In this document: piece after piece, positions 43,190-60,891 of the stretch
Layout of the letters: every line of letters starts with the position of its first letter
Position numbering within the stretch: position 1 is the first letter of the stretch
Origin: Belliella baltica DSM 15883
GTDB taxonomy: Bacteria; Bacteroidota; Bacteroidia; Cytophagales; Cyclobacteriaceae
DNA length: 64,000 nt
Reading direction: 5' to 3'
Assembly (NCBI RefSeq): GCF_000265405.1
Contig: NC_018010.1
Location: forward strand, 2,315,501 to 2,379,500
The notes under the pieces: model-generated
Seen by the model: the letters and a program-made list of their open reading frames with translations, nothing else
Told to the model about the DNA's origin: nothing
The model's database searches: none
Program-made: the position numbers and the translations under genes

Positions 43190-43263
43190 TTTATGATTTT
43201 AGTGAGTCTGATGAACAAAATTCCCTATTTTTGCGCCTTATCAAAGTGATTTCTATTAAAATT

Positions 43264-44307: not shown

Positions 44308-44308
44308 A

Positions 44309-44716
44309 ATGTTCCAAGCTGAAACACAAATCAGAGTGCGGTATGCAGAAACAGATCAAATGGGATATGTTTACTATGGGAATTATGCCATGTACTTTGA
44401 AGTTGGAAGAGTAGAAGCATTACGATCCGCCGGTTTTTCTTATAAGAAAATGGAAGAAGATGGTATCATGATGCCTGTTTTAGAACAAACAACAAAGTAC
44501 CTGAGGCCTGGAAAATATGATGAGCTTTTGACGATCAAAACGACTATCAATGAAATGCCAGGGATTAGGATCGCATTTGAGTATGAGGTTTTTAATGAAC
44601 AAAGGGAATTGATCACAATTGGCAAGACAATTCTAACTTTTTTAAAAAAAGACACTCATAGACCAAGCAGACCACCTCAATATTTACTAGATTTATTAAA
44701 ACCATATTTTGAATAA
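44309..44716 (+). CDS. ybgC: YbgC/FadM-like acyl-CoA thioesterase
   Basis: The 135-residue hot-dog-fold protein has the signature RVRYAETDQMGYVYYGNY, with the Asp of the active site, followed by YFEVGRVEALRSAG, MMPVLEQTTKYLRPGKYDE and KTILTFLKKDTHRPSRPP. YbgC-type thioesterases hydrolyse acyl-CoA, possibly working with Tol-Pal. It lies 1 bp from the mltG stop codon, so the genes are translationally linked. Cytoplasmic, normal length. Confidence 0.92.
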   Translation: MFQAETQIRVRYAETDQMGYVYYGNYAMYFEVGRVEALRSAGFSYKKMEEDGIMMPVLEQTTKYLRPGKYDELLTIKTTINEMPGIRIAFEYEVFNEQRELITIGKTILTFLKKDTHRPSRPPQYLLDLLKPYFE

Positions 44717-44724
44717 TTTTTTCA

Positions 44725-45675: not shown

Positions 45676-45775
45676 GAGATTTGAGAAGCGAGATCCAAGA
45701 AGAAAGAACTAACAAAATGCATATCAGAAAAATAATATAAAATTTCCTCCTTCAGACTTTCTATTTTGTCCTTTC

Positions 45776-46564
45776 TTAACAGCCTTCTAAATTCAATCTT
45801 GCTATTTCACTACCTTTATTAGAGGCCATTATCAAGTCTTGGCAGGCTGTTGGGATTTTTAGTGTTTTTTTACAGATTCCTCTTCTTGCTAAAGCTTCTA
45901 TATGATTAGGGTTGATTTTCAGTAATTCTTCAAAATCTTCTAAAGCCCAAGCTACATAACCAATGGTCATTCTGACTAAACCTCTGTTGTATAATGCAGC
46001 ATGATTTGAAGGGTCATAATTCAAGCACATGTTAAATGAACCCGCTGCACCTAATACATCTCCAATCTGAGATCTAGCCATTCCTTGATAAAAATAAACT
46101 CGTGCATCTTTTGGTTTTAATTCCTTTGCAATAGAGAAAAACTCATCTGCACTTTTGAAATTTTCATTCATAATCATCGCTCTACCAAGCAGATAAATAA
46201 TTTCAAAGTCATTTTCATCATATTTCGCAGCGATAAGCAAGTGTTTTTCTGCATTCAAATAGTCTTCTTGATTCCAATATAATTTACCAATCCCTGCATG
46301 TGCTTGCGCATATCTGGGGTCAATACTTATGATTCGCTTATAATCTTCCAATGCCTCTTCATAACGTTCCAGTTCTTCATAGGCTCTTGCTCTCAAGTGG
46401 AGAGAATTGATATCAGTAACGTTTATAAATAAAGTTTGAGAAAATTCTCTTATGGCCTTTTCATATTCTCCATTATTGAAATGAATTTCCCCTTCAGAAA
46501 AACTTCCGAAACAGGATGAAGTCAATAAAGCAAGGCAGGCTAAGTATTTGGTAATCTTTTTCAT
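45776..46564 (-). CDS. TPR-repeat lipoprotein
   Basis: The ATG at 46564 gives a lipoprotein signal (MKKITKYLACLALLTSSCFG). The body is six or so tetratricopeptide repeats (HFNNGEYEKAIREFSQTL, RAYEELERYEEALEDYKRII, GKLYWNQEDYLNAEKHLLIA, ARSQIGDVLGAAGSFNMC, GYVAWALEDFEELLKINP) that make a helical scaffold. It is probably in the periplasm or outer membrane and mediates protein contacts. It is transcribed singly, opposite to the neighbouring genes. Confidence 0.85.
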   Translation of the reverse strand: MKKITKYLACLALLTSSCFGSFSEGEIHFNNGEYEKAIREFSQTLFINVTDINSLHLRARAYEELERYEEALEDYKRIISIDPRYAQAHAGIGKLYWNQEDYLNAEKHLLIAAKYDENDFEIIYLLGRAMIMNENFKSADEFFSIAKELKPKDARVYFYQGMARSQIGDVLGAAGSFNMCLNYDPSNHAALYNRGLVRMTIGYVAWALEDFEELLKINPNHIEALARRGICKKTLKIPTACQDLIMASNKGSEIARLNLEGC

Positions 46565-46693
46565 AAAAAACAATTTTATCAAAACTAATAAAATAGACGA
46601 TTAATTAAAAAAGAAATTCAAATTTTTTAAATCTCTACAATCCAAGTTCATAATACGGCTCGTATATCATCAAAATCTTAAAATTATTGAGCC

Positions 46694-47119
46694 ATGTTTA
46701 AAAGAATTATTATTGGATGCCTAGTCCTTTTTTCAGCTTTGGTTGTGACTTTAGCTGTGCACATTTATTTGGTTACTCAACCTAAGGGTAACGAAGGACC
46801 AAATTTAGCCATGAGTAGGATTGACTTTGATTCACAGTTGGATTCACTTGAGGCTGTAAAAATCAAAACTTATACAAGTCTGATGGATGGCGTCAGGGAT
46901 GTCAGAGTGAATTTAGCTTCAGGTCATCTAGTCTGCTTGTATGACAGAAATAAGCAAGCTCCTCAAGATATCGTAGAATCGATCAGCAAAGATTTTTTGG
47001 TTCAAGCAAGCCTTTTTCAGCCATCTGATGAAATGCTAGCGCAAAGCTGCCCTGCCATTAATAAAAGTTCACTTACCTACAAACTTGGAGCCTTCTTCCA
47101 GAGGACCTTTGAAAATTAA
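46694..47119 (+). CDS. Small membrane protein with degenerate HMA-like domain
   Basis: This 141-residue protein has one N-terminal membrane helix (IIIGCLVLFSALVVTLAV) and an ~80-residue domain with the beta-alpha-beta order of heavy-metal-associated domains: IKTYTSLMDGVRDVRVNLASG, HLVCLYDRNKQAPQDIVESI. The metal-binding CxxC that should sit in the first loop is missing. It precedes the tandem globin-like lipoprotein by 17 bp, which suggests the two act together. The HMA-like reading is an inference from sequence pattern. Confidence 0.6.
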   Translation: MFKRIIIGCLVLFSALVVTLAVHIYLVTQPKGNEGPNLAMSRIDFDSQLDSLEAVKIKTYTSLMDGVRDVRVNLASGHLVCLYDRNKQAPQDIVESISKDFLVQASLFQPSDEMLAQSCPAINKSSLTYKLGAFFQRTFEN

Positions 47120-47136
47120 ACTAAAACCAAATTTTA

Positions 47137-48219
47137 ATGATTATGAAAAAAGTAAATTACTGGTTCGCCAGTGTCTTGATTGGAACGGTGGCTACATTTT
47201 CATCATGTAATGATGATGATGATCAGCCAATGATGATGGATGATTCGTTTTATGCAGTGCAGTTGGGTGGTGAAACACGAGTTTCGGATCCTAACAATCC
47301 AGGTCAATTGGTAGAACAAGGTTTTCTAAACCTGAGAACGGTTGTAACTAACACCGTTTTGACTATTGCTACAAATGAAGATGGGAAGTATGATGCTTTA
47401 CAACCTTATTTCAGTGTATTACTAAGTGAGGTTGGGGCAGGTCAAACATCTGGGTTTACTACTTTGGTAAGTGATTTTACGGAGTTTTTTGCAGAAGCAA
47501 CTGGTTCTAAAAACTTTATGTATAGTGGCTTAGATATGGAAGCAGCACATGATCCTACCAGAAACTCAAGAATGAATGGTCGAATCAACAATGCTGATTA
47601 TGACTTATTTATTCAAGCAGTAGTAGAAGGTGCAGCGCAAGCAAATATTACCTCTAGTGAAGTAATCGGTCCAGTGGGACAATTATTGGAATCTGTTAGA
47701 GAACCAATTGTTCAAAGAGCTGATGATGAAGGTTTGGATTTATATACTAGACTCGGAGGAAATGTTTTAGTAGATGTGTCTGCCGAAGGTGACCCTGAAA
47801 GATTGGTTGAAGCTGGATATGCACCATTAGAAGCAGTTGTCACAAGTACAGTATTGATTATTGCTACAAATGAAGGTGGTAAGTATGATGCCTTACAACC
47901 TTATTTCTCAGTTTTATTAGCTGAAGTAGGGGCTGGAAATTTTTCAGGCTTTACAACTTTGGTAACAGACTTCTCTGAATTCTTAGCAGAAGCTATTGGT
48001 TCTGTAAATATCGAATACTCTGGTTTGAATATGGTTGATGCTCACAATCCTGCTGTCAATTCAAGAATGACAGGTTTAGTATCTGCTGAAGACTATGATT
48101 TGTTTATTGGAGCAGTAGTAGAAGGAGCAGTAGAAAACAATGTGCCTGAAAGCGTAATAGGAGAATTTGGAGCTTTATTGACAAGTCCAGGTTTGAAAGA
48201 TGCTATCGTACAGAGATAA
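47137..48219 (+). CDS. Lipoprotein with two tandem truncated-hemoglobin-like domains
   Basis: The 360-residue protein has a lipoprotein signal (ATFSSCNDDDDQ) and two ~155-residue repeats (residues ~40-195 and ~200-360) that are about 50-60% identical by eye. Each holds VVT.TVL.IATNE.GKYDALQPYF, FTTLV.DF.EF.AEA.GS, and the line YSGL.M..AH followed by NSRM, DYDLFI..VVEGA, ending IVQR. LYTRLGG at the start of repeat 2 and Y.G..M..AH match group-1 truncated hemoglobins, where the His is the proximal heme ligand. The B10 Tyr region is not conserved. It is followed by a terminator at 48246. Function in heme, oxygen or NO handling in the periplasm or outer membrane is inferred. Confidence 0.65.
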   Translation: MIMKKVNYWFASVLIGTVATFSSCNDDDDQPMMMDDSFYAVQLGGETRVSDPNNPGQLVEQGFLNLRTVVTNTVLTIATNEDGKYDALQPYFSVLLSEVGAGQTSGFTTLVSDFTEFFAEATGSKNFMYSGLDMEAAHDPTRNSRMNGRINNADYDLFIQAVVEGAAQANITSSEVIGPVGQLLESVREPIVQRADDEGLDLYTRLGGNVLVDVSAEGDPERLVEAGYAPLEAVVTSTVLIIATNEGGKYDALQPYFSVLLAEVGAGNFSGFTTLVTDFSEFLAEAIGSVNIEYSGLNMVDAHNPAVNSRMTGLVSAEDYDLFIGAVVEGAVENNVPESVIGEFGALLTSPGLKDAIVQR

Positions 48220-48245
48220 GTAAAAATCATATCGGTTTTAATTAG

Positions 48246-48282
48246 AAAAAGGTCAGCTTTGAGATAAAGCTGGCCTTTTTTT
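48246..48282 (+). terminator. Terminator after the globin-like lipoprotein gene
   Basis: AAAAAGGTCAGCTTT, loop GAGAT, and AAAGCTGGCCTTTTTTT make a 15-bp stem with a T-run. Confidence 0.85.
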
Positions 48283-48305
48283 GTCATTTGTAACTCATGA
48301 TTTGC

Positions 48306-48543
48306 CTTTACGTCGTTCATCCTTACGTGACTTTCCCTTCATCGTAAGTTTCCTAGCTCGGTGGGTTGAAACCCTCTGTTAAGAAGTCGGTCGTGCCGTT
48401 GGCACTGGAAAGCAGGTATATCGGATAAAAGTGGGATTTGCAATCAGCTCCGTAGGAGCGACCGATATAATAATCATGGATTTCAATCCATGATTTGAAT
48501 GAAATAAGGTAATCCAGAAGTCACGCAGTGACGAGCGATATAT
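48306..48543 (+). repeat. Hairpin-rich dispersed repeat, copy R1
   Basis: First of three copies of a ~235-bp repeat. It contains short palindromes GTGCCGTTGGCAC, GCTCCGTAGGAGC, CATGGATTTCAATCCATG and GTCACGCAGTGAC in the same order as copies R2 and R3. It lies just upstream of the exporter genes. Confidence 0.85.
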
Positions 48544-49251
48544 TTTGTGATCAGTGAATTGTATAAAATTTAGCTCTTTTAGCTTCAAGAATTATATTGT
48601 TTTATACTTTAAAATGAATTTTATTAAATATAAGATTTTGTATCCTCGCGATTTTCGGGGCAACCATTTTATGGTTGAAAAGATTAAAAATTTGATTTGT
48701 CTTAAGTCTAAACAACTTATAAACAATTTTTTTTTAAAAATTCAGTCTAAATCTATCCTATAGCCTAATAATAATAATAGTCTTTTACTACTTATTGTAA
48801 AATAGAAATGATTATTAAGTAAAAATTATTAGTAATTATTTGAATAAGAATAATATTTTAGATTTAAATCAATACCGAAATGAAACCTAGTTTTTTAATT
48901 TAAAATTAGGCAGTTAACAAAATTATATTTTGGTTTTAAACTGATTTCACCGTGTTGAAATTTAATTTATTAAGTCAATAATTAAACTTTTTTTGGTAAT
49001 TAACTTTAGGTTATTTATAATTGACACATTATTAAATATAATTTATTTAGGTTATGGGAGGTTTTCAAATTGTTTTATCGGTAAAAAATCTGTTTAATTC
49101 AAGATTTTTATTTTACAAATTTCGCTACTGGTTTATATTTTTATCAAGTTTATTTCAACTTAGAAACCATTCGTAACCTACTTTCAAGGTATAGTAAATT
49201 TTATCTGTTAAACATTTTCTGATTTTTCTGATCTATTAAAATTTTACAAAT
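48544..49251 (+). other. AT-rich gap upstream of the exporter genes, no gene seen
   Basis: About 700 bp of very AT-rich DNA without a credible ORF. A 40-codon open frame at 49054 has no start context or coding signal. It contains only minor palindromes, such as CAACCATTTTATGGTTG at ~48662. It presumably holds the promoter of the exporter operon, but no TTG-N19-TAnnTTTG match was found. Confidence 0.5.
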
Positions 49252-50427
49252 ATGAATACGAAGATTTTTCCAACAGCTATTATCAATCAATCTGTTGAAG
49301 TTTATGATTCACATATTAGTGTACGATCCAGAGCAATTTATCTTTTGTTTCTCGGGATTTTATTTGCTGGGATCATCGCAATGCCTTTGATCTATGTGGA
49401 TGTTGCTGTACAGTCTAGGGGGACTTTTCAGTCAGCTTTGCAGCGCAATTCTCTGATGAGCTCGGTAAGTGGAAGATTGGAAATATGGAATCTGAAAGAA
49501 AACCAAAAGGTTAAAAAGGGAGATGTTTTGGCGGTTATAAGGGGCGAGGTTTTGAACCTTGAAATGCAAGGCTTGGAGGAAAGATTGACTGTTTTGGACG
49601 AATTTATCCATGATCTCAATAAACTCCTAAAGTTAGATTTATCAACTTATGTTATGGAGCCGGTATCACTGAGGTCAAAATTCTATCAAGCTATATTGCT
49701 TGAGTATCAAACGAAATTTAACAACCAAGATGCTGCAGTGCAGAAACTAGAGAGGGATTTCGAAAGAGCACAAACACTGTTTGATGGCAATGCCTTGGCT
49801 TTTGCAGATTATGATGTGGCTGATGTACAATATAAACAGGCAAAATCACAACTTGATTTGATTCGCAAACAACAAAGAAATCTATGGGAGCAGGAACTGG
49901 TCAACCATCAGAATGAAAGAGTTCGCTTGCTTAACCAAAAAAGTGTCTTTTCAGAACAAATGGATCAATATAAAGTCATCGCAGGTACCAACAGGACTTT
50001 GATTAATGTATTGAACCTTAATAAGGGTGATTTTGTCCATCCCCAACAAAAATTAGCAGAAATCTCTCCCGATACGACATTGTTGGCAGTGACCTACATC
50101 TCTCCTATGGATATTGCCTTTATCGAAAAAGGGCAAGAAGTGAGTTTCCAAATTGATGCCTACAACTACAACCAGTGGGGAATTGCTACAGGAAAAGTAG
50201 TAGATATTGCTGATGATCTATCATTATTGAATGAAAGAGAAGCTGGTTTTTTGGTTACCTGTGCTTTAGACAATCCATCTTTAATTTTATCCAATGGTCA
50301 GGAGGGTTATGTAAAAAAAGGAATGACTTATAATGCCAGATTTGTAATTGCTCGGAGGTCCTTATTCCAATTATTATATGATAAAGTAGATAATTGGCTC
50401 AACCCCCAAGTTCAAAGCTTAAATTAA
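49252..50427 (+). CDS. HlyD-family membrane-fusion (adaptor) protein of a peptide exporter
   Basis: The 391-residue protein has a membrane helix at residues ~26-50 (YLLFLGILFAGIIAMPLIYV), a lipoyl-like half (SGRLEIWNLKENQKVKKGDV), a long helical hairpin (~110-240 with LDEFIHDLNKLLKLDL and QKLERDFERAQTLF) and the closing lipoyl/beta-barrel half (GDFVHPQQKLAEISPDTTL, GQEVSFQIDAYNYNQWG). That layout is the HlyD/AcrA type that links an inner-membrane ABC exporter to an outer-membrane channel. It is followed after 12 bp by the C39-peptidase ABC transporter. A TolC-like gene is not present in the window. Confidence 0.92.
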   Translation: MNTKIFPTAIINQSVEVYDSHISVRSRAIYLLFLGILFAGIIAMPLIYVDVAVQSRGTFQSALQRNSLMSSVSGRLEIWNLKENQKVKKGDVLAVIRGEVLNLEMQGLEERLTVLDEFIHDLNKLLKLDLSTYVMEPVSLRSKFYQAILLEYQTKFNNQDAAVQKLERDFERAQTLFDGNALAFADYDVADVQYKQAKSQLDLIRKQQRNLWEQELVNHQNERVRLLNQKSVFSEQMDQYKVIAGTNRTLINVLNLNKGDFVHPQQKLAEISPDTTLLAVTYISPMDIAFIEKGQEVSFQIDAYNYNQWGIATGKVVDIADDLSLLNEREAGFLVTCALDNPSLILSNGQEGYVKKGMTYNARFVIARRSLFQLLYDKVDNWLNPQVQSLN

Positions 50428-50439
50428 TTTTTTACAACA

Positions 50440-52590
50440 ATGGGAATAAAAATCAAACAAAGAGATATTACTGATTGTGGTGCTGCATGTCTGGCCTCAG
50501 TAGCTGCATTTTACAAATTGGAGATGCCAGTAGCCAAAATCCGTCAGATGGCTTCGACTGACCAAAAGGGAACTAATATCCTTGGGTTGATTGAAGCTGC
50601 AACCAAGATGGGCTTCTCAGCAAAAGGTGTAAAAGGTGATTTTGATGCCTTGAAAGATGTTCCGATGCCTGTTATTGCTCATGTGATCGTAAAAAAGGTC
50701 TTACACCATTTTGTAGTCTTATATAAAGTAAATGATAAGACTGTGGAGTATATGGATCCTGGTGATGGACAAATGCACAAGGTCAGCCCAGATGCTTTCA
50801 AAGAGATGTGGACAGGGGTACTTGTCCTTCTTATGCCCAATGATGAATTCAAAGCAATTAGTGAAAAAGTAAGCACATGGAGTAGGTTTTGGTTTTTGGT
50901 CAGACCACATAAAGGTGTGATGGTACAATCTCTGGTTGGAGCAGTATTATATACTATTTTGGGACTGTCAACTTCTATCTATGTGCAAAAGATCATTGAC
51001 CATGTTTTTATAGGAAGAAATACCAATTTGCTGAATTTATTGTCAATTGGGATGATTGCTCTCCTATTGATGCAAATAGTAATCGGTGTTTACAAAACCC
51101 TATTTATCATCAAGGTAGGTCAACGGATCGATGCCAGGTTGATTTTGGGTTATTATAAGCATTTACTCACATTGCCTCAGCGTTTTTTTGACACCATGCG
51201 TGTAGGTGAAATTATTTCAAGAGTAAATGATGCAGTGAAAATCAGAGCATTTATCAACGACGTTTCTATTGGCTTTTTGGTCAATATTTTTATCGTCTTA
51301 TTTTCTTTTGCATTGATGTTTACTTTCTATTGGAAATTGGCTTTGGTTATGTTGCTGGTCATTCCACTTTATACGATCATATACTTGGTGACCAATAGTT
51401 TGAATAAAAAAATTGAAAGAAGACTGATGGAAGAATCAGCAGAGTTAGAATCTCAGCTCGTAGAATCCATTACCTCGGCGGGTACAATCAAAAGATTTGG
51501 GGCTGAAGACCATGCCAATATCAAAACAGAGGTGAGGTTTGTCTCTTTGTTGAGGACAGTTTATCAATCAGGAATGAACAACATCTTCTCGGGGACATCT
51601 TCGGAAGTAGTCTCGAGGCTCTTTACCATTATTCTTCTCTGGGTGGGTGCAGGCTATGTCCTGAAAAATGAAATTACGCCTGGTGAACTAATGTCTTTTT
51701 ACGCATTGACAGGCTACCTTACTGGTCCGATTTCTAGTTTGATCGGTATGAACAAGACAATTCAGAATGCTCTGATAGCAGCAGATAGGCTTTTTGAAAT
51801 CATGGATCTTGAGGTAGAGAGTTCTAAAGATTCATTTCCTATCAAAAAGGAAAATGTGGGCGATATCACTTTCAAAAACGTGAAATTTAGATATGGGTCA
51901 AGAGCTAATGTGTTTGATGATCTAAACTTGACATTCCCAAAAGGGAAGATTTCGGGTGTTGTAGGTGAAAGTGGTTCTGGCAAGAGTACCTTGGTATCCT
52001 TACTTCAGAATCTTTACCCTCTTCAATCGGGTAATATCCATATCGGGGAACATGATATCAAATTTATCGACAATGTCAGTTTGAGACAAATAGTCTCTGT
52101 GGTGCCTCAGCGCATAGACCTTTTTGCTGGAAATGTCTTGGAAAATGTCGCTTTGGGGGATTATCAACCCGATATGCAGAAGATAGTCGGTATATGCAAT
52201 AAGCTGGGAATGATGGGTTTTATAGAAAACCTTCCCAATGGTTTTGGTACTTATTTGGGAGAAAATGGTGCGTCCCTCTCAGGAGGGCAAAAGCAAAGAG
52301 TAGCCTTAGCAAGAGCGCTGTATAAAGATCCAGAAGTTTTGATTTTAGATGAAGCAACAGCTTCCCTAGATCCTGACTCGGAGCAGTTTGTACAGCAAAC
52401 TATCCGAATGCTCGCCACAGAAGGCAAGACTATCATCTTTATTACTCACAGGTTGGCGGCTGTGCAGGATTTTGATCGCTTATATGTGCTAGATAAAGGG
52501 AAACTAATCGAAGAAGGAACCCATACAGAGTTGTTAATGCAGGAAGGAAAATATTACCAAATGATCAGAAAACAGCTTTTGGTGCTATAA
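50440..52590 (+). CDS. C39-peptidase-containing ABC exporter for double-glycine peptides
   Basis: The 716-residue protein has an N-terminal C39 peptidase (Cys13 in TDCGAACLASVAAFY, His90 in LHHFVVLY, Asp106 in EYMDPGDG, all in place), a six-helix transmembrane domain (~160-435) and an ATPase (Walker A GESGSGKST, signature LSGGQKQRVALARALY, Walker B VLILDEATAS). Such transporters remove leader peptides that end in GG and export the mature peptide. The three small GG-leader peptides at 53.2-56.2 kb are its obvious substrates. It overlaps nothing and lies 12 bp after the HlyD gene. Confidence 0.95.
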   Translation: MGIKIKQRDITDCGAACLASVAAFYKLEMPVAKIRQMASTDQKGTNILGLIEAATKMGFSAKGVKGDFDALKDVPMPVIAHVIVKKVLHHFVVLYKVNDKTVEYMDPGDGQMHKVSPDAFKEMWTGVLVLLMPNDEFKAISEKVSTWSRFWFLVRPHKGVMVQSLVGAVLYTILGLSTSIYVQKIIDHVFIGRNTNLLNLLSIGMIALLLMQIVIGVYKTLFIIKVGQRIDARLILGYYKHLLTLPQRFFDTMRVGEIISRVNDAVKIRAFINDVSIGFLVNIFIVLFSFALMFTFYWKLALVMLLVIPLYTIIYLVTNSLNKKIERRLMEESAELESQLVESITSAGTIKRFGAEDHANIKTEVRFVSLLRTVYQSGMNNIFSGTSSEVVSRLFTIILLWVGAGYVLKNEITPGELMSFYALTGYLTGPISSLIGMNKTIQNALIAADRLFEIMDLEVESSKDSFPIKKENVGDITFKNVKFRYGSRANVFDDLNLTFPKGKISGVVGESGSGKSTLVSLLQNLYPLQSGNIHIGEHDIKFIDNVSLRQIVSVVPQRIDLFAGNVLENVALGDYQPDMQKIVGICNKLGMMGFIENLPNGFGTYLGENGASLSGGQKQRVALARALYKDPEVLILDEATASLDPDSEQFVQQTIRMLATEGKTIIFITHRLAAVQDFDRLYVLDKGKLIEEGTHTELLMQEGKYYQMIRKQLLVL

Positions 52591-52766
52591 TGATGATCGT
52601 TAAGCGTTAAACGTTAAGCGTTTAACAATTAACCTTTTAACCAATAATGAAAGTTTAGAGGCTTAGAGTTTAGAAGTTTAGAAAAAGGTTTTTGCAAGCC
52701 TAACCTTCTAACCTTCCAACTTTACAACCTTTTAACTATTTAACCAATAACTAAATTATCTAAATC

Positions 52767-53129
52767 ATGGAATTTATCAGACAAATAGAGAGATTACAGC
52801 TGCTAAACAAGCTAGTAAGAGAGCAGAGGACAGGAAGTCCGGAGGAATTTGCGGAGAGATTGGGGGTGAGTAGAGCGAAGCTGTATTTGATGCTTGATGA
52901 ATTAAGAGATGAAGGGGTTGAGATTAGGTTTTCAAAGCGTTCAAATTCATTTGTTTATGAGAATTGTAACGGAGTATCAGTGGTTTTTTCTCTTAAGGTT
53001 CTTGGATCAGATGAAGTTCGGAATATCTCTGCTGGAAAAATTTCAAATTATTTTCCAGCGTCTAAAATATTAGACGGAACTATCATTTCTTTGATATATG
53101 ATCAATCAGCAAAAAGACATGCTAGCTAA
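52767..53129 (+). CDS. HTH-domain protein, probable regulator of the peptide locus
   Basis: The 120-residue protein has an N-terminal winged-helix/HTH (FIRQIERLQLLNKLVREQRT and PEEFAERLGVSRAKLYLMLDEL, then GVEIRFSKRSNSFVY) and a ~55-residue C-terminal part with no known domain. It lies between the exporter and the first peptide gene. Its final residues and stop codon (AKRHAS) fall in a sequence shared with the upstream leader of peptide 3, so the C-terminus may have been altered by recombination. A role in controlling the peptide genes is inferred from position. Confidence 0.75.
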   Translation: MEFIRQIERLQLLNKLVREQRTGSPEEFAERLGVSRAKLYLMLDELRDEGVEIRFSKRSNSFVYENCNGVSVVFSLKVLGSDEVRNISAGKISNYFPASKILDGTIISLIYDQSAKRHAS

Positions 53130-53212
53130 TTCAATTTGCTTGGGAGAGATTGGGAGTTCCTAATGCCCGGAAAAGGTTGGGAAAAAATGAAAATTTATTT
53201 AGATTATGGAAA
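53119..53212 (+). repeat. Duplicated upstream leader, copy 1 (before peptide 1)
   Basis: From ATGCTAGCTAATTC to the start of peptide 1, ~90% identical to 55920-56013 ahead of peptide 3. It holds ATTGGG-AGTT-CCTAAT, a hairpin that stays paired in copy 2 (ATTGGG-AGCA-CCCAAT), followed by GCCCGGAAAAG and ATGAAAATTTATTTAGAT. Confidence 0.8.
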
Positions 53213-53370
53213 ATTTAAGAGAACTGAGTTTTGAGGAGATGGTGGAGGTAGATGGAGGCTTTATTTTATGGTCACCTTCTATATCCATGACAGAATTCGT
53301 TTACGGAATTAGTGAAACATTTAGTGAAACTTTTGAACAAGTCAGAAAAACAGTAAAATATGAGAAATAA
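53206..53370 (+). CDS. Double-glycine leader peptide 1 (54 aa)
   Basis: A 54-codon gene too short for an ordinary gene caller. It begins MENLRELSFEEMVEVDGG, which fits the leader consensus xLxxxELxxxxGG and aligns with the other two peptides here. Cleavage after GG would leave a 36-residue core (FILWSPSISMTEF..., ending KYEK) that is acidic and aromatic in the first half. It is 77 bp downstream of the HTH gene, preceded by leader copy 1, and its stop overlaps the start region of peptide 2. Function is probably a secreted bacteriocin or signalling peptide. Confidence 0.75.
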   Translation: MENLRELSFEEMVEVDGGFILWSPSISMTEFVYGISETFSETFEQVRKTVKYEK

Positions 53371-53374
53371 TAAT

Positions 53375-53542
53375 ATGAAAGATCTAACAAACTTCGAATT
53401 AATTAATTTGAATGGAGGAGAAGATGTTTCCTTCGCAAGAAAAGCCGGTAGAATTGCTGGAGAACTCTTAGCTGTAACAGCAGCTTGGACGATTTTCGTA
53501 GCCGATGCTACTGTTGATGTTATAAAAACAGTTTTAAAATAA
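53375..53542 (+). CDS. Double-glycine leader peptide 2 (55 aa)
   Basis: I choose the ATG at 53375 (the ATG at 53360 adds RNNN and overlaps peptide 1). The leader MKDLTNFELINLNGG precedes a 40-residue core starting EDVSFARKAGRIAGELL and ending VDVIKTVLK. The core is amphipathic and rich in Ala, Val and Ile, like pore-forming class II bacteriocins. It is followed by a terminator at 53550. It is very probably exported and cleaved by the C39-type ABC transporter. Confidence 0.8.
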   Translation: MKDLTNFELINLNGGEDVSFARKAGRIAGELLAVTAAWTIFVADATVDVIKTVLK

Positions 53543-53549
53543 AAATAAA

Positions 53550-53590
53550 ATTGAGGTTTAAGTTCAATTTAAATGAGCTTAAACCTCAAT
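53550..53590 (+). terminator. Stem-loop after peptide 2
   Basis: A 13-bp perfect stem (ATTGAGGTTTAAG with CTTAAACCTCAAT) with a 15-nt AT-rich loop, directly after the peptide 2 stop codon. The T-tract is weak (TTTACATAACCTTTTT), so it may protect the RNA or end it. Confidence 0.7.
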
Positions 53591-53848
53591 TTACATAACC
53601 TTTTTAGTAAGTAATTTCTCATTTTAAGTTTAAATTAAGAAATATGTTGTTAATTGTTTTAACATAAACATATACATTAAACTTGCCAAGAAAGAAATAA
53701 TTGCGTTTTTTCAGTTTATATTTACAATAATCGATATTTAAACAATTTAATTTAAAGTAAGAATTAAAATTGAAACCTAAGGAATCGTTAAAGAAGCTAG
53801 ATACCACAATTTTATATTAATTCTGCTAATAATTATTTAATAAATCAA
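53591..53848 (+). other. AT-rich gap between peptide 2 and the first CPBP gene
   Basis: About 260 bp with no credible ORF and only small palindromes (for example GTTAATTGTTTTAAC). It probably contains the promoter of the CPBP gene at 53849; no clear consensus box was found. Confidence 0.45.
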
Positions 53849-54505
53849 ATGTTCATAATTATAAAAGATTTTGGAAGGTTTTTGGTTTCTAAAAAAGAAT
53901 CAAATCAAATACTTCTTTCTAATTTTAAATTCTTAGCGAATGCATTATTCTTAAAGTGGATAATTTTTTCAGTTTTTTTGTTATTAAATTTTTTAGTATT
54001 CAACCAATCACTACCGAAGAGTAATTCTGTTTTTGGTGAGGATAATATAATAAAAATCTTTTTAAATGTGGTTATATTAGCTCCCATATTAGAAGAGTTA
54101 GTTTTTCGTTATCACATTGGGAATAAGTTAAAACATATTGTTTTTTCAGCAATTGCTTCTATTATATTGTTTTACGATAGTTTAATAGTCCTTTCGGTCT
54201 TACTTTTATTTTTCCTGATACTTTCATTTTTTTTAAAAAATAAAATAAAAGTTAAAAATTTAATTTTAGTTTATACTTCTTCAATTATGTTTGGAGTTTT
54301 ACATGTAACCTTTACAGAAAATTTTTACTTGCTCGAGAATCTCACAAATTCAATATTTGTATTCATCACCAAATTTTTTGGAGGCCTTCTTTTTTGTTAT
54401 GTTTTTGATAAAAAAGGAATCTTTTTATCCATCATACTACACATGCTATGGAATCTTGTTCCCTTTTTACTTTTTTTTCTAAGAAATCGAATTCTAGAGT
54501 TTTGA
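53849..54505 (+). CDS. CPBP-family intramembrane metalloprotease 1
   Basis: This 218-residue, highly hydrophobic protein has ~6 helices and the CPBP (Abi/Rce1) motifs: EELVFRYHIG (EExxxR), IMFGVLHVTF (FxxxH) and ILHMLWNLVPF (HxxxN). Catalytic residues are intact. CPBP proteins in bacteriocin clusters often give immunity or help process peptides. It follows peptide 2 by ~300 bp. It has lower GC than the surrounding genes, as do many accessory genes here. Confidence 0.85.
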   Translation: MFIIIKDFGRFLVSKKESNQILLSNFKFLANALFLKWIIFSVFLLLNFLVFNQSLPKSNSVFGEDNIIKIFLNVVILAPILEELVFRYHIGNKLKHIVFSAIASIILFYDSLIVLSVLLLFFLILSFFLKNKIKVKNLILVYTSSIMFGVLHVTFTENFYLLENLTNSIFVFITKFFGGLLFCYVFDKKGIFLSIILHMLWNLVPFLLFFLRNRILEF

Positions 54506-54707
54506 ATTGATGTTTTTTTTCTAAATGATAAAATATCCGAAAATAAATTCAGTATTGTACTATTATGAAATATCAATGATTCCGAATTTACGGAAACACC
54601 CAGAGGGATGGTTATTTTAGGCATTACGTAGCATGCCCCTACTAATCGGAGTAGTAATGAAAATCAATTTTAAACACATAAAATTTCCACTTTAAGACCT
54701 TAAAAAT

Positions 54708-55355
54708 ATGACACAAACCTTTACCAAACTCAAAACCTTTCTTAAATCTCCATATCATAAGGATTCTTATGAAAAAATAAAGGGTAAAGAATTTTTGCAT
54801 TTGCTTTTGATAGCATTTGCCATTGTAATTCCATATGCATTTGTTTTGGATTTGGCAGGAATAGATCAGTTTGACCATAAGATGGAATTTTTGTTGAAGG
54901 AGAATAAATGGCTTGTAGCTGTACTGGCTATTGTAATTGCTCCTTTGCTCGAAGAACCGATTTATAGGTTACATCTAGATTTTAAAAAGTCATCTATTTG
55001 GTGGGGGTTGGTACTTTCTTTACTGTTAATCAGTGAAGTTTGGATTCCTGTAGCATTGCTTTGGGTGTACTTATTGTTTTTGATGTATAAAGTGAATAAA
55101 GGTGATTCACTAAATCTAAAATATAGTGTTTTTATTTCCTCAGCATTATTTGGATTAGTTCATTTAATGAATTTCACGGACTTTGATTATGCACAATATT
55201 TCTATTGGGTGCCATTTATGGTAGGTGCTCAGTTTTTGATTGGTCTTGTTCTGAGTTACATCAGACTAAACTATGGCATGAAGTGGGCGATTATTTTCCA
55301 TGGAGTATATAATGCTATCTTGATCATACCAGCAGTATATTTTTATGAAGTTTGA
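54708..55355 (+). CDS. CPBP-family intramembrane metalloprotease 2
   Basis: The 215-residue protein has about six membrane helices with the motifs LLEEPIYRLHLD (EExxxR), ALFGLVHLMNF (FxxxH) and IIFHGVYNAI (HxxxN), so the catalytic residues of the family are present. It is separated by ~200 bp from the first CPBP gene; no peptide gene is seen in that gap. It ends immediately before repeat copy R2. Immunity or peptide processing is the likely role. Confidence 0.85.
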   Translation: MTQTFTKLKTFLKSPYHKDSYEKIKGKEFLHLLLIAFAIVIPYAFVLDLAGIDQFDHKMEFLLKENKWLVAVLAIVIAPLLEEPIYRLHLDFKKSSIWWGLVLSLLLISEVWIPVALLWVYLLFLMYKVNKGDSLNLKYSVFISSALFGLVHLMNFTDFDYAQYFYWVPFMVGAQFLIGLVLSYIRLNYGMKWAIIFHGVYNAILIIPAVYFYEV

Positions 55356-55361
55356 GCCTGC

Positions 55362-55595
55362 TATATCGTCCGTCCCTACGGGACTTTTTCCGAGTCGCAA
55401 GTTTCGTGAGTCGGTGGGTTGAAACCCACCGTTAAGATGTCGGTCGTGCCGCTGGCACTGGAAGGCTGGTATATCGGATGAAAGTGAGATTTGCTTTCAG
55501 CTCCATAGGTGCGGCCGAAATATTAGTCATGGATTTCAATCCATGATTTGAATGAAATAAGGTAATCCAGAAGTCACGTAGTGACGAGCGATATG
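55362..55595 (+). repeat. Hairpin-rich dispersed repeat, copy R2
   Basis: Second copy of the ~235-bp repeat, the most regular one: CGTCCCTACGGGAC, GGTGGGTTGAAACCCACC, GTGCCGCTGGCAC, CATGGATTTCAATCCATG and GTCACGTAGTGAC follow in series. It starts 6 bp after the CPBP 2 gene's stop. Confidence 0.85.
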
Positions 55596-55919
55596 GATTG
55601 TTATTAGTGAATTATCGTTTTCTTTAGCCTTTCGATATTCGGGACAGGCATTACTGAGCCGGAAAGGAGCACCAGTTTACTCCGTTTATCAATGGTTTTT
55701 AGCCATTGTTTTATTATGTAACCTTTTCTTAGTTGTCTGACATTAGAGACTTGTTTGATTATCAGAAGCTACTAATTTTAAAAAATAAATATCAATAATA
55801 AACTACTGCCCTGTAAGGGCAAGAGCTCCTAACAATGGGTGCAGCCCATTGCACAAGATCCTGCTATTATCAGTAATGCCCTGAAAGGGCATCTGAATAA
55901 TCATGTTTTAGAGATTTCT
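55596..55919 (+). repeat. Intergenic stretch with GCCCTGAAAGGGC-type palindromes
   Basis: No gene. At 55808-55820 (GCCCTGTAAGGGC), 55833-55851 (CAATGGGTGCAGCCCATTG) and 55878-55890 (GCCCTGAAAGGGC) are short palindromes of the kind that form REP-like arrays in Bacteroidota. A hairpin CAATGGTTTTTAGCCATTG lies at ~55690. Confidence 0.6.
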
Positions 55920-56013
55920 ATGCTAGCTAATTCGATTTGCTTATGAGAGATTGGGAGCACCCAATGCCCGGAAAAGATTGGGGAAGAATGAAAATTTATT
56001 TAGATTATGGAAA
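55920..56013 (+). repeat. Duplicated upstream leader, copy 2 (before peptide 3)
   Basis: Counterpart of 53119-53212: ATGCTAGCTAATTC to the start codon region, with the hairpin ATTGGG-AGCA-CCCAAT followed by GCCCGGAAAAG and ATGAAAATTTATTTAGAT. The peptide gene reads on directly from it. Confidence 0.8.
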
Positions 56014-56192
56014 AGTTTAAGGAATTAAACAAAAATGAATTGATGGAGATTTATGGAGGGAAAGTTGATTATTATGAATATTCTTGGACTGGAACTAACA
56101 ATCCTATTATTTATACAGCAGAAGCAGTTGTAAATGGAGGTAAGGCCATTGCAAATGCAGGCATTTGGATTTGGAATCAATTAGTAGATTAA
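56007..56192 (+). CDS. Double-glycine leader peptide 3 (61 aa)
   Basis: A 61-codon gene whose leader MEKFKELNKNELMEIYGG has the same consensus as the other two (EL then Ile/Leu/Val, x, GG). The 43-residue core begins KVDYYEYSWTGTNNP and ends GIWIWNQLVD, with two aromatic-rich ends and a small-residue middle (AEAVVNGGKAIANAG). It probably belongs with the CPBP gene at 56273, which lies 80 bp downstream, and is exported by the shared ABC transporter. Confidence 0.8.
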   Translation: MEKFKELNKNELMEIYGGKVDYYEYSWTGTNNPIIYTAEAVVNGGKAIANAGIWIWNQLVD

Positions 56193-56272
56193 TTGAAAAC
56201 AATTCAGAAATTCATAATTGTGCGCATCGGTGCTTTACGGTGCGCACATTCTCTTATCGAAAAAAATCATAA

Positions 56273-57055
56273 ATGAAAAATAATTTTCCTTCTAAAATCT
56301 TGCATAGTGCTGAATTAATCGTGGTTCCTTTCTTTATTTCAGCAATAATTTGTATGCCTTTTTTGTTTTTTGGTATTGAAGATTCAATTTATGGATTTAC
56401 ACTTTTTATTATTTATGGAATAACAATAGTTCTTTATGCTTGGATAAGGAACAAAAGAAAGTGGCCTTTTGATTTTAGTTTTAGGTTACCTAGCATCCGA
56501 TGGATTGCTTATTCTTTGTTATTTATTGTTACCATGATTCTGGCTATTAGTCATCCTCTGAACTATTTGATTAACCTTTTATTACAGAATAAAAACAAAG
56601 GTATGGCAATGGAATTATTTTCAATCTTCTCATTTGGAGCTGTTTTTATTGGTCCAATAGTAGAGGAATTGATATTTCGGGGTATTATCCTTAATGGACT
56701 TAGAGATAAATATGGAAGTAATTTAGCCTTGACTATTTCTAGTATTTTATTTGCCATTATTCATATTCAACCTGCTCAGATAATTACAGCTTTATTGATG
56801 GGACTGGTTTTTGGTTATATATTTATCAAGACAAATAGTTTGGGTTTAGTAATTCTGTTACATTCTGTAGCCAACCTGACGAGTATATTAATTGGGGAGT
56901 TTTTGAAAATTGATACTTCCATAGACAACTTGGAAAGTTATATGATTTATGGAAAATGGACTTTCTTCATTATTGGGATCTCTGTTTTGATTTGTGTTTA
57001 TTTGTTTTTGAAATATTGGAGAAGGAGCGGTGAATTGGAATTTAGCAGAAAGTGA
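56273..57055 (+). CDS. CPBP-family intramembrane metalloprotease 3
   Basis: The 260-residue protein has ~7 hydrophobic segments. The motifs VEELIFRGIILNGL, SILFAIIHIQP and ILLHSVANLTS give all three catalytic elements of the family. It is longer than the other two at the N-terminus. It pairs with peptide 3 and is followed by repeat copy R3. Immunity or processing is the likely role. Confidence 0.87.
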   Translation: MKNNFPSKILHSAELIVVPFFISAIICMPFLFFGIEDSIYGFTLFIIYGITIVLYAWIRNKRKWPFDFSFRLPSIRWIAYSLLFIVTMILAISHPLNYLINLLLQNKNKGMAMELFSIFSFGAVFIGPIVEELIFRGIILNGLRDKYGSNLALTISSILFAIIHIQPAQIITALLMGLVFGYIFIKTNSLGLVILLHSVANLTSILIGEFLKIDTSIDNLESYMIYGKWTFFIIGISVLICVYLFLKYWRRSGELEFSRK

Positions 57056-57077
57056 AGATTGATTTTTTTAGAGCAAT

Positions 57078-57316
57078 AATCGTCCATCCCTACGAGACTT
57101 TCACCGAGTCGCAAGTTTCGTGGCTAAGTGTGTTGAAACCCACCGTTAAGATTTCGGTCGTGCCGCTGGCACTGGAAAGTCTGGGATATTTCTTAAGATA
57201 AGAGGGAGTTTCCGTATCAGCTCCGTAGGAACGACCGATATATTAATCATGGATTTCAATTCTTGACAATGAGGTAGCCATGCTATTCAGAAGTCACGTA
57301 GTGACGACCGATATAG
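57078..57316 (+). repeat. Hairpin-rich dispersed repeat, copy R3
   Basis: Third and most diverged copy of the ~235-bp repeat, with CGTCCATCCCTACGAGAC, TGTGTTGAAACCCACC, GTGCCGCTGGCAC and GTCACGTAGTGAC. The middle palindrome CATGGATTTCAAT has lost its second arm. It follows CPBP 3 by 22 bp. Confidence 0.8.
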
Positions 57317-57336
57317 TTTTTGATCAATCAGCAAAA

Positions 57337-57365
57337 AAAGCGAGGCAATTTAATTTGCCTCGCTT
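57337..57365. terminator. Bidirectional terminator between CPBP 3 and hisB
   Basis: AAAGCGAGGCAA, TTTAA(T) loop, TTGCCTCGCTTT with A-run on one side and TTTATTT on the other, so it stops both the + strand peptide module and the - strand his operon. Confidence 0.85.
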
Positions 57366-57387
57366 TATTTAAATTATTTTCCTCGCC

Positions 57388-58482
57388 TTACAAAACCCCC
57401 TTCGTACTCGGAAGTTGATTCAAGGCATTGAGATCTCTTTTTACGGCCATTTTGATGGCTCTTGCCATGGATTTGAAGATCGCTTCGATTTTGTGGTGTT
57501 CGTTTGAACCTTCGGCTTTGATATTCAGGTTACATTTGGCTGTGTCGGAGAAGGATTTGAAGAAATGGTAGAACATCTCCGTAGGCATTTCTCCAATTTT
57601 TTCTCTTTTGAATTCTGCTTCCCAAACCATCCAAGGACGTCCGCCAAAGTCTATTGCACATTGTGCCAACACATCGTCCATCGGCAAAAGGAAACCATAA
57701 CGATAGATGCCCTTTTTGTCTCCAAGCGCCTTTAAATAAGCTTCACCAAGTGCCAAGGCTGTATCTTCAATCGTATGATGCTCGTCGATGTGCAAGTCCC
57801 CTTTGACCTGAATATCCAAATCAGTACCGCCATGCTTGCCCAGTTGCTCTAGCATGTGGTCAAAGAAATGCAAACCTGTGCTGATATTGCACTTGCCTGT
57901 TCCATCCAAATTGAGGCTGATTTTGATGTCAGTCTCTGAAGTTTTTCTATCTACTGATGCTTTTCTCGCTGGAAGTCTGAGGAATTCATAGATTTCATCC
58001 CAAGAAGTAGTGCAGAAGTCTGCGTCTTCAAAAGCTTCTCCAATGAAAATGGATTTGGTTCCAAGGTTTTTTGCGAGTTGAACATCTGTTTTCCTATCTC
58101 CGATCACATAGGAATTGGCTAGGTCATAGTCGCCGTTTTGATAAGCTGTGAGCATACCGATCCCTGGTTTACGAGTAGGTAAGTTTTCGTGTTCAAATGA
58201 CTTATCGATATGCACAGCCGTAAAAATGATGCCTTCTCCTTCGAGGGTCTTCATCATTTTGTTTTGGGCTGGCCAAAAGGTGTCTTCTGGAAAAGAATCC
58301 GTACCTAAGCCATCTTGATTGGTGACCATGATTAGTTCAAAATCACATTCCTCAGCTATTTTCCTGAGATTGCTCAATGCTTTGGGGTAGAATTCTAATT
58401 TCTCCAAGCTGTCAACTTGGAAGTCAGTAGGGGGCTCGATGATGATGGTGCCATCACGATCAATAAATAATGCTTTCTTCAT
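57388..58482 (-). CDS. hisB: Bifunctional histidinol-phosphatase / imidazoleglycerol-phosphate dehydratase
   Basis: The 364-residue protein joins a HAD phosphatase (FIDRDGTI DxD motif, [18 protein letters not shown]; residues ~1-165) to an IGPD domain ([69 protein letters not shown]). The fusion is usual in Bacteroidota and gammaproteobacteria. It overlaps hisC by 4 bp and is the last gene of the operon in this window; the customary hisH-A-F-I genes do not follow. Confidence 0.97.
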
Positions 58483-59531
58483 GGCTTGTATTGCACTAGA
58501 GCTTTTAATAAAGCTTCGTTTTCAGTTCTTGTTCCAACAGAAATTCTCAAACAGTCTTCGCAAAGGACTACCTTGGATCTATCTCTGATGATGATGGTTT
58601 GTTCGATTAAGTATTCGTAAATTTTTCTAGCTCCCTCGGTCTTGATCAGAAGAAAATTCGCGTGAGAAGGATAGATTGTAGATACAAAAGGGAATTTTTC
58701 TAGTTCAGTTTTAAGGAACGCTCTTTCTGCTAGCGTATCTTTAACTATTCTTTGAATTGCACTTGCATTATCCAAAGCTTCTAATACCTTTTCTTGGGTA
58801 AGTCCAGAGATATTGTATGGAGGTTTGATCAAATTCAGGATTTTGATGATTTCTACTGATGCAAAAGCCATCCCAATTCGCAAAGAAGCAAGTCCCCAAG
58901 CTTTGGAGAAAGTCTGCATCACCAAGAGGTTTGGATAATTCGCTAATTCTGTCGTGAAACTTGGTTCATCACTGAAATCAATATATGCTTCATCAACTAC
59001 TACCAAGCCCTGGAAATTATTCAGAATCTGATGGATATCTGATCTTTTGACTTTGTTGCCACTTGGGTTATTTGGTGAGCAAATGAAGATGATTTTTGTG
59101 TTTTCATTGACTGCCTCCAGAATGGCATCAGGTCTGAGTTGATAGTCAGGAGTAAGGTTTACTTTCTGAATAGCGATATCGTTGATCCCTGCACTAACTT
59201 CATACATGCCATAAGTAGGAGGAAGCAAGATGATGTTATCAATACCCGGCCTACAAAATGCGCGCATCAACAAATCTATCGCTTCATCACTGCCATTTCC
59301 CAAGAAAATTTGATTGGCTTCTACACCTTTGACTACAGCTAACTTCTGTTTGATATCCAGTTGATAAGGATCAGGATATCTGTTGAATTTCCCATCAGCC
59401 ATCGAGCCAAATGGATTTTCATTGGCATCAAGAAATATCCCAGCTTTTCCCGAATACTCATCACGAGCGGAAGAGTAAGGCTTGATTTTGCTGATGTGTG
59501 GACGAAGTAATTTTTCTAGATCGAAAGCCAT
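58479..59531 (-). CDS. hisC: Histidinol-phosphate aminotransferase
   Basis: This 350-residue fold-type I aminotransferase has [45 protein letters not shown] and the PLP-binding Lys in [14 protein letters not shown]. It converts imidazole-acetol phosphate to histidinol phosphate. It shares one base with the hisD stop and 4 bp with hisB, so it is translated in a coupled operon. Confidence 0.96.
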
Positions 59532-60829
59532 CAGGAATTTTCTTTTAGATAATTTAGACGGATGGTAACTGCATTCTTGTGGGCTTCTAAGAGTTCGTTT
59601 TCAGCCATGATTTCTATGGTCGGACCGATATTCTGAATTCCCTTCGCAGTGATTTTTTGATAGGTTATTTTTTTGGTAAAGCTGTCTAATGAAACTCCAC
59701 TGTAATTTCTCGCATAACCATAAGTTGGTAGCGTATGGTTGGTTCCAGAAGCATAATCTCCGGCGGATTCTGGAGTGAAGTTTCCGATGAAAACAGATCC
59801 TGCATTTTTGATTCTATTCACAACTTCTTCTTCATCCTCTTCTTTGACACAGATGATCAAATGCTCAGGAGCATATTCATTGATCAAGTCAATGGCTTTG
59901 TCCTGATTGTTAATCACCACCGCTACAGAATTGCCCAATGCTTTTTTGGCGATTTCTTTTCTAGATAGTTTTTCTACTTGAAGATCGACTTCTTGCATCA
60001 CTTTTTGAGCAACTTTTTCAGATGAAGCGACCAAGATTACTTGGGAATCAACTCCATGTTCGGCTTGTGAAAGCAAATCTGAAGCAACAAAGGCAGGAAT
60101 AGCAGATTCATCTGCGTAAACTAACACCTCAGAAGGTCCGGCAGGCATATCTATCGCAACTCCTTTTTTTACAGCCAATTGCTTGGCAGCAGTTACATAT
60201 TGATTTCCTGGACCAAAGATTTTGTCTACTGCAGGAACAGACTCTGTTCCATAAGTCATGGCAGCTACTGCTTGAGCACCACCAACTTTGACGATTTTGT
60301 CAATTCCGATTAGGTCGGCAGTATAAAGTATAGCAGGGTGAATATTACCTTCTTTGTTGGGAGGTGTGCAAAGTACAATTTCCTCGCAACCTGCAATATT
60401 CGCAGGAATACCAAGCATCAAAACAGTGGAAAAAAGTGGTGCTGTACCTCCTGGAATGTATAAGCCGACTTTTTGAATTCCGACAGTTTTACGCATACAG
60501 GTTACACCTTCCATGGTATCCATAACCAAGTCAGGACTCTGTTGTGCTTCGTGAAATTTATCAATATTTTCCTTCGCCTGCAAAATGGCTTTTTGCAAAT
60601 CTTCGGAAACTAGTGCCTTGGCAGCACTGATTTCTTCTCTGCTTGCCAAAAGGTTTTTGATGGTGACATGATCATATTCTAAAGCAAATTTTTTCAATGC
60701 CTTATCGCCTTGTCTTTTTACTTTACGCATGATCGGCTTGACAATTTTTTCTATGTCTTTGGATTTTTGAACTGGTCTTGCCAATTCTGATTTCCATTCT
60801 CCTTTTACAGGATTGACTAAAATTTTCAT
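59531..60829 (-). CDS. hisD: Histidinol dehydrogenase
   Basis: The 432-residue enzyme carries out the last two steps of histidine synthesis. Motifs include [81 protein letters not shown] with the zinc-binding Gln/His, and [19 protein letters not shown]. It lies 62 bp after hisG. Confidence 0.97.
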
Positions 60830-60891
60830 GTTTTTGAATTTAGGTTTGAGATAAAAATCAAATTGAAATTGAATTCTTCTCTTTTACTTTA

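Follow-up and report, generated by a model that had tools for sequence, protein, structure and literature searches.

A C39-type export locus of Belliella baltica with bacteriocin-like cassettes and a winged helix-turn-helix protein that carries a leader-like C-terminal motif

The window considered here, a stretch of 64,000 nucleotides (nt) from Belliella baltica DSM 15883 (contig NC_018010.1, positions 2,315,501 to 2,379,500), contains an export locus in which a C39-peptidase ATP-binding cassette (ABC) exporter and its HlyD-type adaptor are combined with small peptides bearing double-glycine (GG) leaders, CPBP proteins and a winged helix-turn-helix (HTH) protein. All elements lie on the forward strand, and positions are those of the window. 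Copy A of a structured repeat is followed by the adaptor, the exporter, the HTH gene, a first cassette-head element, the peptide genes P1 and P2 and the genes CPBP1 and CPBP2; repeat copy B, a second head element, P3, CPBP3 and repeat copy C complete the array. The original prediction, made from the sequence alone, had listed the adaptor, the exporter, the HTH gene, three GG peptides and three CPBP genes, and all of them are present where it placed them. The HTH gene had been treated as an ordinary neighbour, and the motif in the register of C39 leaders at the C-terminal end of its product, which is associated with an export setting among related proteins, had been missed.

The adaptor (49252..50427, 391 residues; PF13437, 49.6 bits) precedes an exporter of 716 residues (50440..52590) that unites C39 peptidase (PF03412, 116.6 bits), transmembrane (PF00664) and ATPase (PF00005) domains in one protein, the architecture of C39 peptidase-containing ABC exporters, and scores 536.7 bits with TIGR01193 (cut-off 523.85). 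It shares 98% identity with the exporter of Belliella aquatica (L006; L and G numbers denote loci and genomes) and 93–95% with those of two other Belliella, one of them partial. A search of named genomes with the exporter yielded 80 loci, or 81 with the window. On the exporter strand, a GG-leader open reading frame (ORF) lies within 5 kb at 63 of these 81 loci and a CPBP gene at 40, while the opposite strand carries them at 7 and 0 loci, respectively; both occur together within 5 kb at 37 loci. Related exporters are thus accompanied by GG-leader ORFs outside the window as well, the point on which the original prediction had staked itself. Among the 54 loci with 5 kb of sequence on both sides, 46 have a GG ORF, 28 a CPBP gene and 27 both. 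ORFs with a strict GG leader number 87 on the exporter strand versus one on the opposite strand, and those with a loose GG motif 19 versus 7. CPBP genes are found 56 times within 5 kb of an exporter versus three times beyond (703 and 587 kb of sequence, respectively), a count made with a profile seeded from genes of these loci, which distant CPBPs may escape. The B. baltica genome (one contig of 4,196,595 bases) contains five PF02517 matches, three of them at this locus, and three C39 matches, namely this exporter, one of 107.8 bits and one partial match.

The leaders of P1, P2 and P3 all show Leu at −12, Glu at −8, hydrophobic residues at −7 and −4, and GG. Hydrophobicity at −4 is part of the GG-leader consensus. 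For C39 leaders, the consensus is quoted as Leu at −12, Glu at −8 and Leu at −7, followed by GG (PMC6363468). P1 (53206..53370, 54 residues; leader ELSFEEMVEVDGG) has its predicted cleavage site after residue 18 and overlaps P2 (53360..53542; leader LTNFELINLNGG). P3 (56007..56192, 61 residues) exceeds the cut-offs of PF10439 and TIGR01847; in the NCBIfam scan of the locus peptides, TIGR03949 and NF038035 gave weak matches only. By analogy with known families, all three peptides are predicted to be cut and exported by the C39 exporter, and they may have antibacterial activity. Since P1-like and P2-like ORFs also stand side by side in L083 and L252, P1 and P2 look like a two-peptide bacteriocin, of which P2 is likely the second peptide. 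Two overlapping GG-leader genes and hydrophobic cores are features that we take them to share with class IIb two-peptide bacteriocins; unlike established members of that class, P1 and P2 stay under every family cut-off.

CPBP1 (53849..54505, 218 residues), CPBP2 (54708..55355, 215 residues) and CPBP3 (56273..57055, 260 residues) score 41.4, 29.4 and 78.6 bits with PF02517, each above the cut-off. All three keep the catalytic motifs EExxxR, FxxxH and HxxxN (EELVFR, FGVLH and HMLWN in CPBP1; EEPIYR, FGLVH and HGVYN in CPBP2). In a set of 62 CPBP proteins, in which these patterns were sought anywhere in the protein, EExxxR occurs in 58, an FxxxH-type motif in 62 and an HxxxN-type motif in 60. CPBP1 is the partner of P1 and P2, and CPBP3 that of P3. 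In 32 cassettes from 28 loci, the CPBPs covary with the peptide cores, with a Pearson coefficient of 0.40 (maximum of 1000 permutations 0.27) and a Spearman coefficient of 0.24 (permutation maximum 0.17), both uncorrected for relatedness. CPBP proteins beside GG bacteriocins are regarded as putative immunity proteins in pneumococcus (PMC4860687), and the CPBP of each cassette most likely protects the producer in B. baltica. CPBP2 is a separate, more conserved gene without a peptide of its own.

Each cassette begins with a head element of about 100 nt. Head element 1 (53119..53216) overlaps the HTH gene at its end and P1 at its start, and head element 2 (55920..56018) runs into the start of P3; both are matched by a profile and by a covariance model. 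The profile finds the element at 47 places in 33 loci, some of them overlapping, with 32 distinct sequences. The covariance model finds exactly two copies in the B. baltica genome, both at this locus. In the family it gives 30 matches, spread over 16 of 118 genomes, and some of these genomes supplied sequences to the model; by our reading, a GG-leader ORF follows 23 of the 30 and a decayed leader or none the other 7. One helix covaries in the alignment (12 cells, 0 of 500 shuffles), in a count where a single change shared by descent is scored once for every sequence that inherited it. Folded as a single sequence, the RNA of head element 2 is no more stable than shuffled sequences (z −0.91; 39 of 200 equally stable), and Rfam gives no match at gathering score in 46000–58500 and none at E up to 1 in 53050–53260. 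A role of the head element as an RNA switch is not claimed; an alternative helix, mutually exclusive with the first, pairs as often, and its covariation does not exceed that of shuffles.

Because the head element occurs twice, it delimits two predicted cassettes, P1+P2+CPBP1 and P3+CPBP3, and not three, which corrects the original prediction. The broader proposal of one exporter serving interchangeable peptide-plus-CPBP cassettes with structured repeats between them is supported by the head element, by repeats that are confined to the locus within the genome and by the differing place of P3+CPBP3, which comes first behind the HTH gene in B. aquatica and last in the window. This pair is also found together in L127, and a block of HTH gene, head element, P1, P2, CPBP1, CPBP2, partial repeat and head element recurs in another genus of the family (G729, L274).

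The 246-nt repeat occurs upstream of the exporter (copy A, 48313..48560, 85% identical to copy B), between the cassettes (copy B, 55365..55610) and behind CPBP3 (copy C, 57079..57326), so the structured repeats announced by the original prediction are real. Copy B folds far better than shuffled sequences (z −4.67; 0 of 200 as stable). All three full copies of the genome lie at this locus; outside it, three partial matches span 36 to 87 nt, and the idea of a genome-wide repeat family in B. baltica was rejected, as full copies are confined to the locus. Repeat matches are present in 8 of 8 genomes of the genus that were searched, this one included; the long copies of G002 and G005 are mostly gathered on one contig, in part as series about 254 nt apart. 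The boundary motif TGATCAATCAGCAAA forms the 3' end of the HTH gene (53099..53113), returns after the last repeat of the window (57321..57335) and also stands behind a repeat in L006 and L083; behind copy B of the window it is missing. In Belliella, the 246-nt repeat closes each cassette, and judged from these arrangements the repeats resemble local joints between parts of the array.

Two other Belliella loci show related arrays. In Belliella calami (L083:4297-20928), a series of repeats about 254 nt apart lies within the cassette array, and the HlyD and ABC frames are partial (114 and 381 residues). A locus of G005 (L269:8193-14742) has 12 repeat copies, four head elements and one CPBP of 215 residues; no exporter, HTH gene or GG ORF behind the head elements was found there, and it may be a remnant, possibly immunity-only, locus. 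In the window itself, histidine biosynthesis genes on the opposite strand, the first encoding an IGPD-domain (HisB-type) protein, lie beyond repeat copy C, and on the other side of the array a lipoprotein-like gene (47137-48219) consists of two similar halves (a 240-nt direct repeat, 71% identical) and has no Pfam match at E 0.001.

The HTH protein (52767..53129, 120 residues) just misses the HTH_11 cut-off (22.6 bits; cut-off 25) and is assigned by its family alignment and by an AlphaFold2 (AF2) model. Built from 33 alignment rows, the model shows a firm winged HTH, with block means of the predicted local distance difference test (pLDDT) of 91–98 over residues 11–70, and a helix at residues 81–88. 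At residues 89–99 and 111–120 pLDDT falls below 50, and short low-confidence elements appear at residues 109–117. The leader-like motif (53001..53036) consists of L79 (−12), E83 (−8), V84 (−7), I87 (−4) and A89-G90 (−2, −1), and reads L-GSD-E-V-RN-I-S-AG. The column of residue 90, the second glycine position, is at least 90% conserved in the 33 aligned members, a conservation class shared by ten positions of the HTH domain. According to the model, the 30 residues after AG (53037..53126) form a tail that is probably disordered or flexible.

For counts across the family, the motif was defined as a hydrophobic residue at −12, a hydrophobic residue at −4 or −7, and GG or AG. The statistics cover 157 of 175 HTH ORFs, namely those with at least 60 bits, and identical proteins were counted once. 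The motif is present in 69 of the 157. Given this definition, −12 is Leu or Ile in 57 and −4 is Ile or Val in 58 of these 69 tails, while −2 is Gly in 57 and Ala in 12; the final glycine stands at the same distance from the domain in 50. Position −8, which lies outside the definition, is acidic in 51 of the 69, compared with a background of 11% in these tails.

Among the 95 HTH proteins encoded within 5 kb of a C39 exporter, 56 carry the motif, where shuffled tails give a mean of 3.9 and a maximum of 11 (1000 shuffles); elsewhere, 13 of 62 carry it (shuffled mean 1.1, maximum 5). Beside eleven of these 13 lies a CPBP gene, a GG peptide, or an exporter that is broken or escaped detection; of the other two, L141 is truncated at the end of its contig and L179 offers only an opposite-strand GG ORF. 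When the export setting is widened to include proximity (3 kb, same strand) to a GG peptide, the motif is found in 65 of 106 proteins within it versus 4 of 51 outside (Fisher test, 4e-11), the four being L226, L141, L099 and L179. With clusters of 60% identity as the unit, the contrast is 31 of 49 versus 3 of 38. Seen from the exporters, an HTH gene within 5 kb is counted at 47 of 81 loci and bears the motif at 35 of the 47; since identical proteins are counted once, L015 and L083 appear as loci without an HTH gene in this figure, though both have one.

The leader-like end and the tail vary more than the domain. Over 12 pairs of relatives, the ratio of nonsynonymous to synonymous variation (pN/pS) rises from 0.13 in the domain to 0.28 in the leader and 0.86 in the tail; ten further pairs were left out for unlike tail length, and some of the 12 pair unrelated tails, so that the tail ratio is inflated. 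By eye, tails containing ILDG or LLDG recur in different genera (the window, L009, L016, L149, L150 and L152). Compared with B. aquatica, the HTH gene is 87–100% identical over 52770–52859, 47–67% over 52860–53099 and 90–97% over 53100–53219. Recognition helix, wing, leader and tail (residues about 32–111) thus differ as a block while the exporter is 98% identical. In the pherotypes of other quorum systems, the recognition part and the signal change together, and the block of HTH recognition helix and tail can be likened to them.

Other HTH proteins with a related setting were observed. A second, tail-less HTH subfamily (MAGLKYYERTK...) is present in L123, L126 and L011:15299-20500, with a GG peptide encoded by a gene of its own behind the HTH gene; in L126 and once in L123, the HTH gene begins 2 nt behind another C39 exporter. 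The second C39/ABC system of B. baltica (L119:6646-7834, C1 about 4027645-4028833) is broken into frames of 173, 76 and 129 residues and is followed by a 70-residue HTH protein of a tail-less subfamily; no GG peptide was found in that stretch. In L136:7606-9062, an HTH protein ends in the canonical leader MSATDMYHINGG, and four ORFs for GG peptides, of which three are proline-rich, lie nearby on the opposite strand.

On balance, the locus is probably a type I (C39/HlyD) export locus with exchangeable bacteriocin-like cassettes and an HTH regulator whose leader-like end is cut by the exporter. The HTH protein would regulate by binding DNA, with a C-terminus that mimics a GG leader and ends in a short tail. 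On this mimic the exporter's C39 domain would dock and remove the tail, and the cut would link the activity of export to cassette transcription via the head element, to which the HTH protein may bind; the released tail may leave the cell as a signal. A stricter version, offered tentatively, is a one-protein switch: by cutting the tail of the regulator itself, the C39 domain would report export to the cassette promoter, and the tail would be exported as a pheromone.

Several observations weigh against a cut regulator. The window protein has AG where C39 substrates show GG, GA or GS, and −7 is hydrophobic in only 29 of the 69 motif-bearing tails. PncW of pneumococcus has an Asp-Gly site instead of GG (PMC4860687), and position −2 may therefore be flexible. 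In loci L139–L238, mostly but not all drawn with a domain-only alignment, the contrast based on C39 proximity alone is weaker (18 of 38 versus 11 of 47). Twelve of the 47 exporter-linked HTH proteins, from Cyclobacterium, Lewinella/Neolewinella/Saprospiraceae and Sphingobacterium, lack the motif, and some Cyclobacterium HTH proteins stop inside the leader. In L274, a tailed HTH protein and cassettes occur with no exporter match within the 8 kb examined. HTH leaders are no closer to the peptide leaders of their own loci than in permuted pairings (370 of 2000 permutations gave an equally good match), and with this result, which is not significant, a tuning of HTH leaders to those peptides is not supported. 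A domain tree (73 residues) shows 17 changes of tail state with only four supported independent pairs, too few for a test of the link free of descent. On the cassette side, the covariation of cores and CPBPs is uncorrected for relatedness.

Several of these points, namely the AG, the irregular −7, the leader match that is not significant, the few supported pairs and the exporter-bearing relatives without a tail, would equally fit a tail that is a structural extension behind a glycine-capped helix and is never cut, with an ordinary local regulator and the cassette array as described. This alternative is rather unlikely. The fold does not need the tail, because 47 of the 51 family members away from export genes end without the motif; the spacing between domain and glycine differs in 19 of 69 tails while the motif stays; and the low AF2 confidence after the glycine, with short low-confidence elements only, goes along with tails that vary in length and sequence. 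A different function has also to be considered for the CPBP proteins, at least CPBP2, which could act as proteases that mature a signal peptide, the role proposed for SilX, and not in immunity. Ten of the 157 HTH genes are followed within 220 nt by the start of a CPBP gene, seven times of the CPBP2 type, and in these ten cases no GG ORF was detected between the two; close relatives of CPBP2 lie directly behind the HTH gene in seven genera. CPBP2 may therefore serve the HTH tail and not a bacteriocin. The catalytic patterns kept in nearly all of the 62 proteins point the same way, as does the silX mutant of Streptococcus anginosus, whose lost activity is restored by mature SilCR and which is not sensitive (PMC9298176). 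Such a role is nevertheless doubtful, as the cassette CPBPs differ between cassettes and vary with the peptide cores, as immunity would predict, and L269 retains a 215-residue CPBP, of the CPBP2 type by score, without exporter or HTH gene, which weighs against service to the HTH tail; yet the four head elements of that locus are not followed by any GG ORF that could be found.

The small winged HTH adjoining a peptide exporter could also bind leader peptides and not DNA, in the manner of the recognition elements of ribosomally synthesized and post-translationally modified peptides (RiPPs), which share a related fold. This is quite improbable. The AF2 model has helices first and a strand hairpin after them, as is generally the case in DNA-binding winged HTH proteins. 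A sequence search of solved structures with the HTH profile gave two matches only (E about 0.009), and a fold search returned generic winged HTH proteins, with NiaR and BirA as nearest neighbours, none of them at E 0.001 or below; no PqqD-type family matched the protein in Pfam or NCBIfam, and no modifying enzyme was found among the proteins scanned around the locus. That the whole locus is decaying and unused is hardly credible: related loci have broken exporters (L083/L121, L140) or have lost the exporter (L269), but in the window the exporter, peptides and CPBPs are intact frames with their catalytic motifs, and the low pN/pS of the HTH domain argues in the same direction. An exporter-cut HTH regulator beside exchangeable cassettes accordingly stays the preferred interpretation.

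Among known systems, the blp locus of pneumococcus is similar in that a single peptidase exporter is accompanied by several GG-leader bacteriocins and by putative immunity genes of the CAAX/CPBP type, the content varies, and the peptides are thought to act in pairs (PMC4860687). In contrast to the locus of B. baltica, the pneumococcal locus encodes BlpC, a separate pheromone with a GG leader, alongside a kinase and a response regulator, whereas a small winged HTH protein with a leader-like tail, the head element, the repeats and a Bacteroidota host distinguish the present locus. It is not classed as blp-type, because no histidine kinase or response regulator was found among the 19 proteins scanned from 43231 to 61752. 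Bacteroidetocins are likewise small GG-leader peptides of Bacteroidota with a C39 ABC exporter; their regions contain one cysteine-bearing peptide, a thiol oxidoreductase and a protein with five transmembrane segments, and an immunity protein was not found there (PMC6671954), unlike the several cysteine-free peptides, the CPBP genes and the HTH gene of B. baltica. The SilX region of S. anginosus also places a CPBP-type gene among bacteriocin and signalling genes; unlike here, SilX lies beside a quorum-sensing system, and it was proposed to process the signal and not to protect (PMC9298176). A survey of Bacteroidales RiPP clusters lists one HTH gene in one cluster, with no tail mentioned in the accessible part of the text (PMC10352776), and a graspetide survey includes an HTH family of another kind (PMC8939145). 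Among the matches listed in the open-access literature, which leaves subscription papers mostly outside, no title or abstract describes CPBP cassettes in Cytophagales or a C39-type tail on a DNA-binding protein.

The array of B. baltica suggests that bacteriocin-like loci of environmental Bacteroidota can diversify around a fixed exporter by exchangeable cassettes that bring their own head element. If the regulator is indeed an exporter substrate, it would provide a compact, kinase-free way of sensing export or neighbours. A parallel is HetC of Nostoc, a C39 exporter of a Gram-negative bacterium that is tied to regulation. In the working model of its authors, the N-terminal part of a cut substrate remains inside and acts on a regulator, while the other part is exported (PMC10986499). 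HetC has no known substrate, whereas the candidate substrate in B. baltica is itself a predicted DNA-binding protein, which would make the HTH protein a direct candidate for the question raised in the HetC study, namely whether C39 exporters of Gram-negative bacteria have roles beyond toxin export (PMC10986499).

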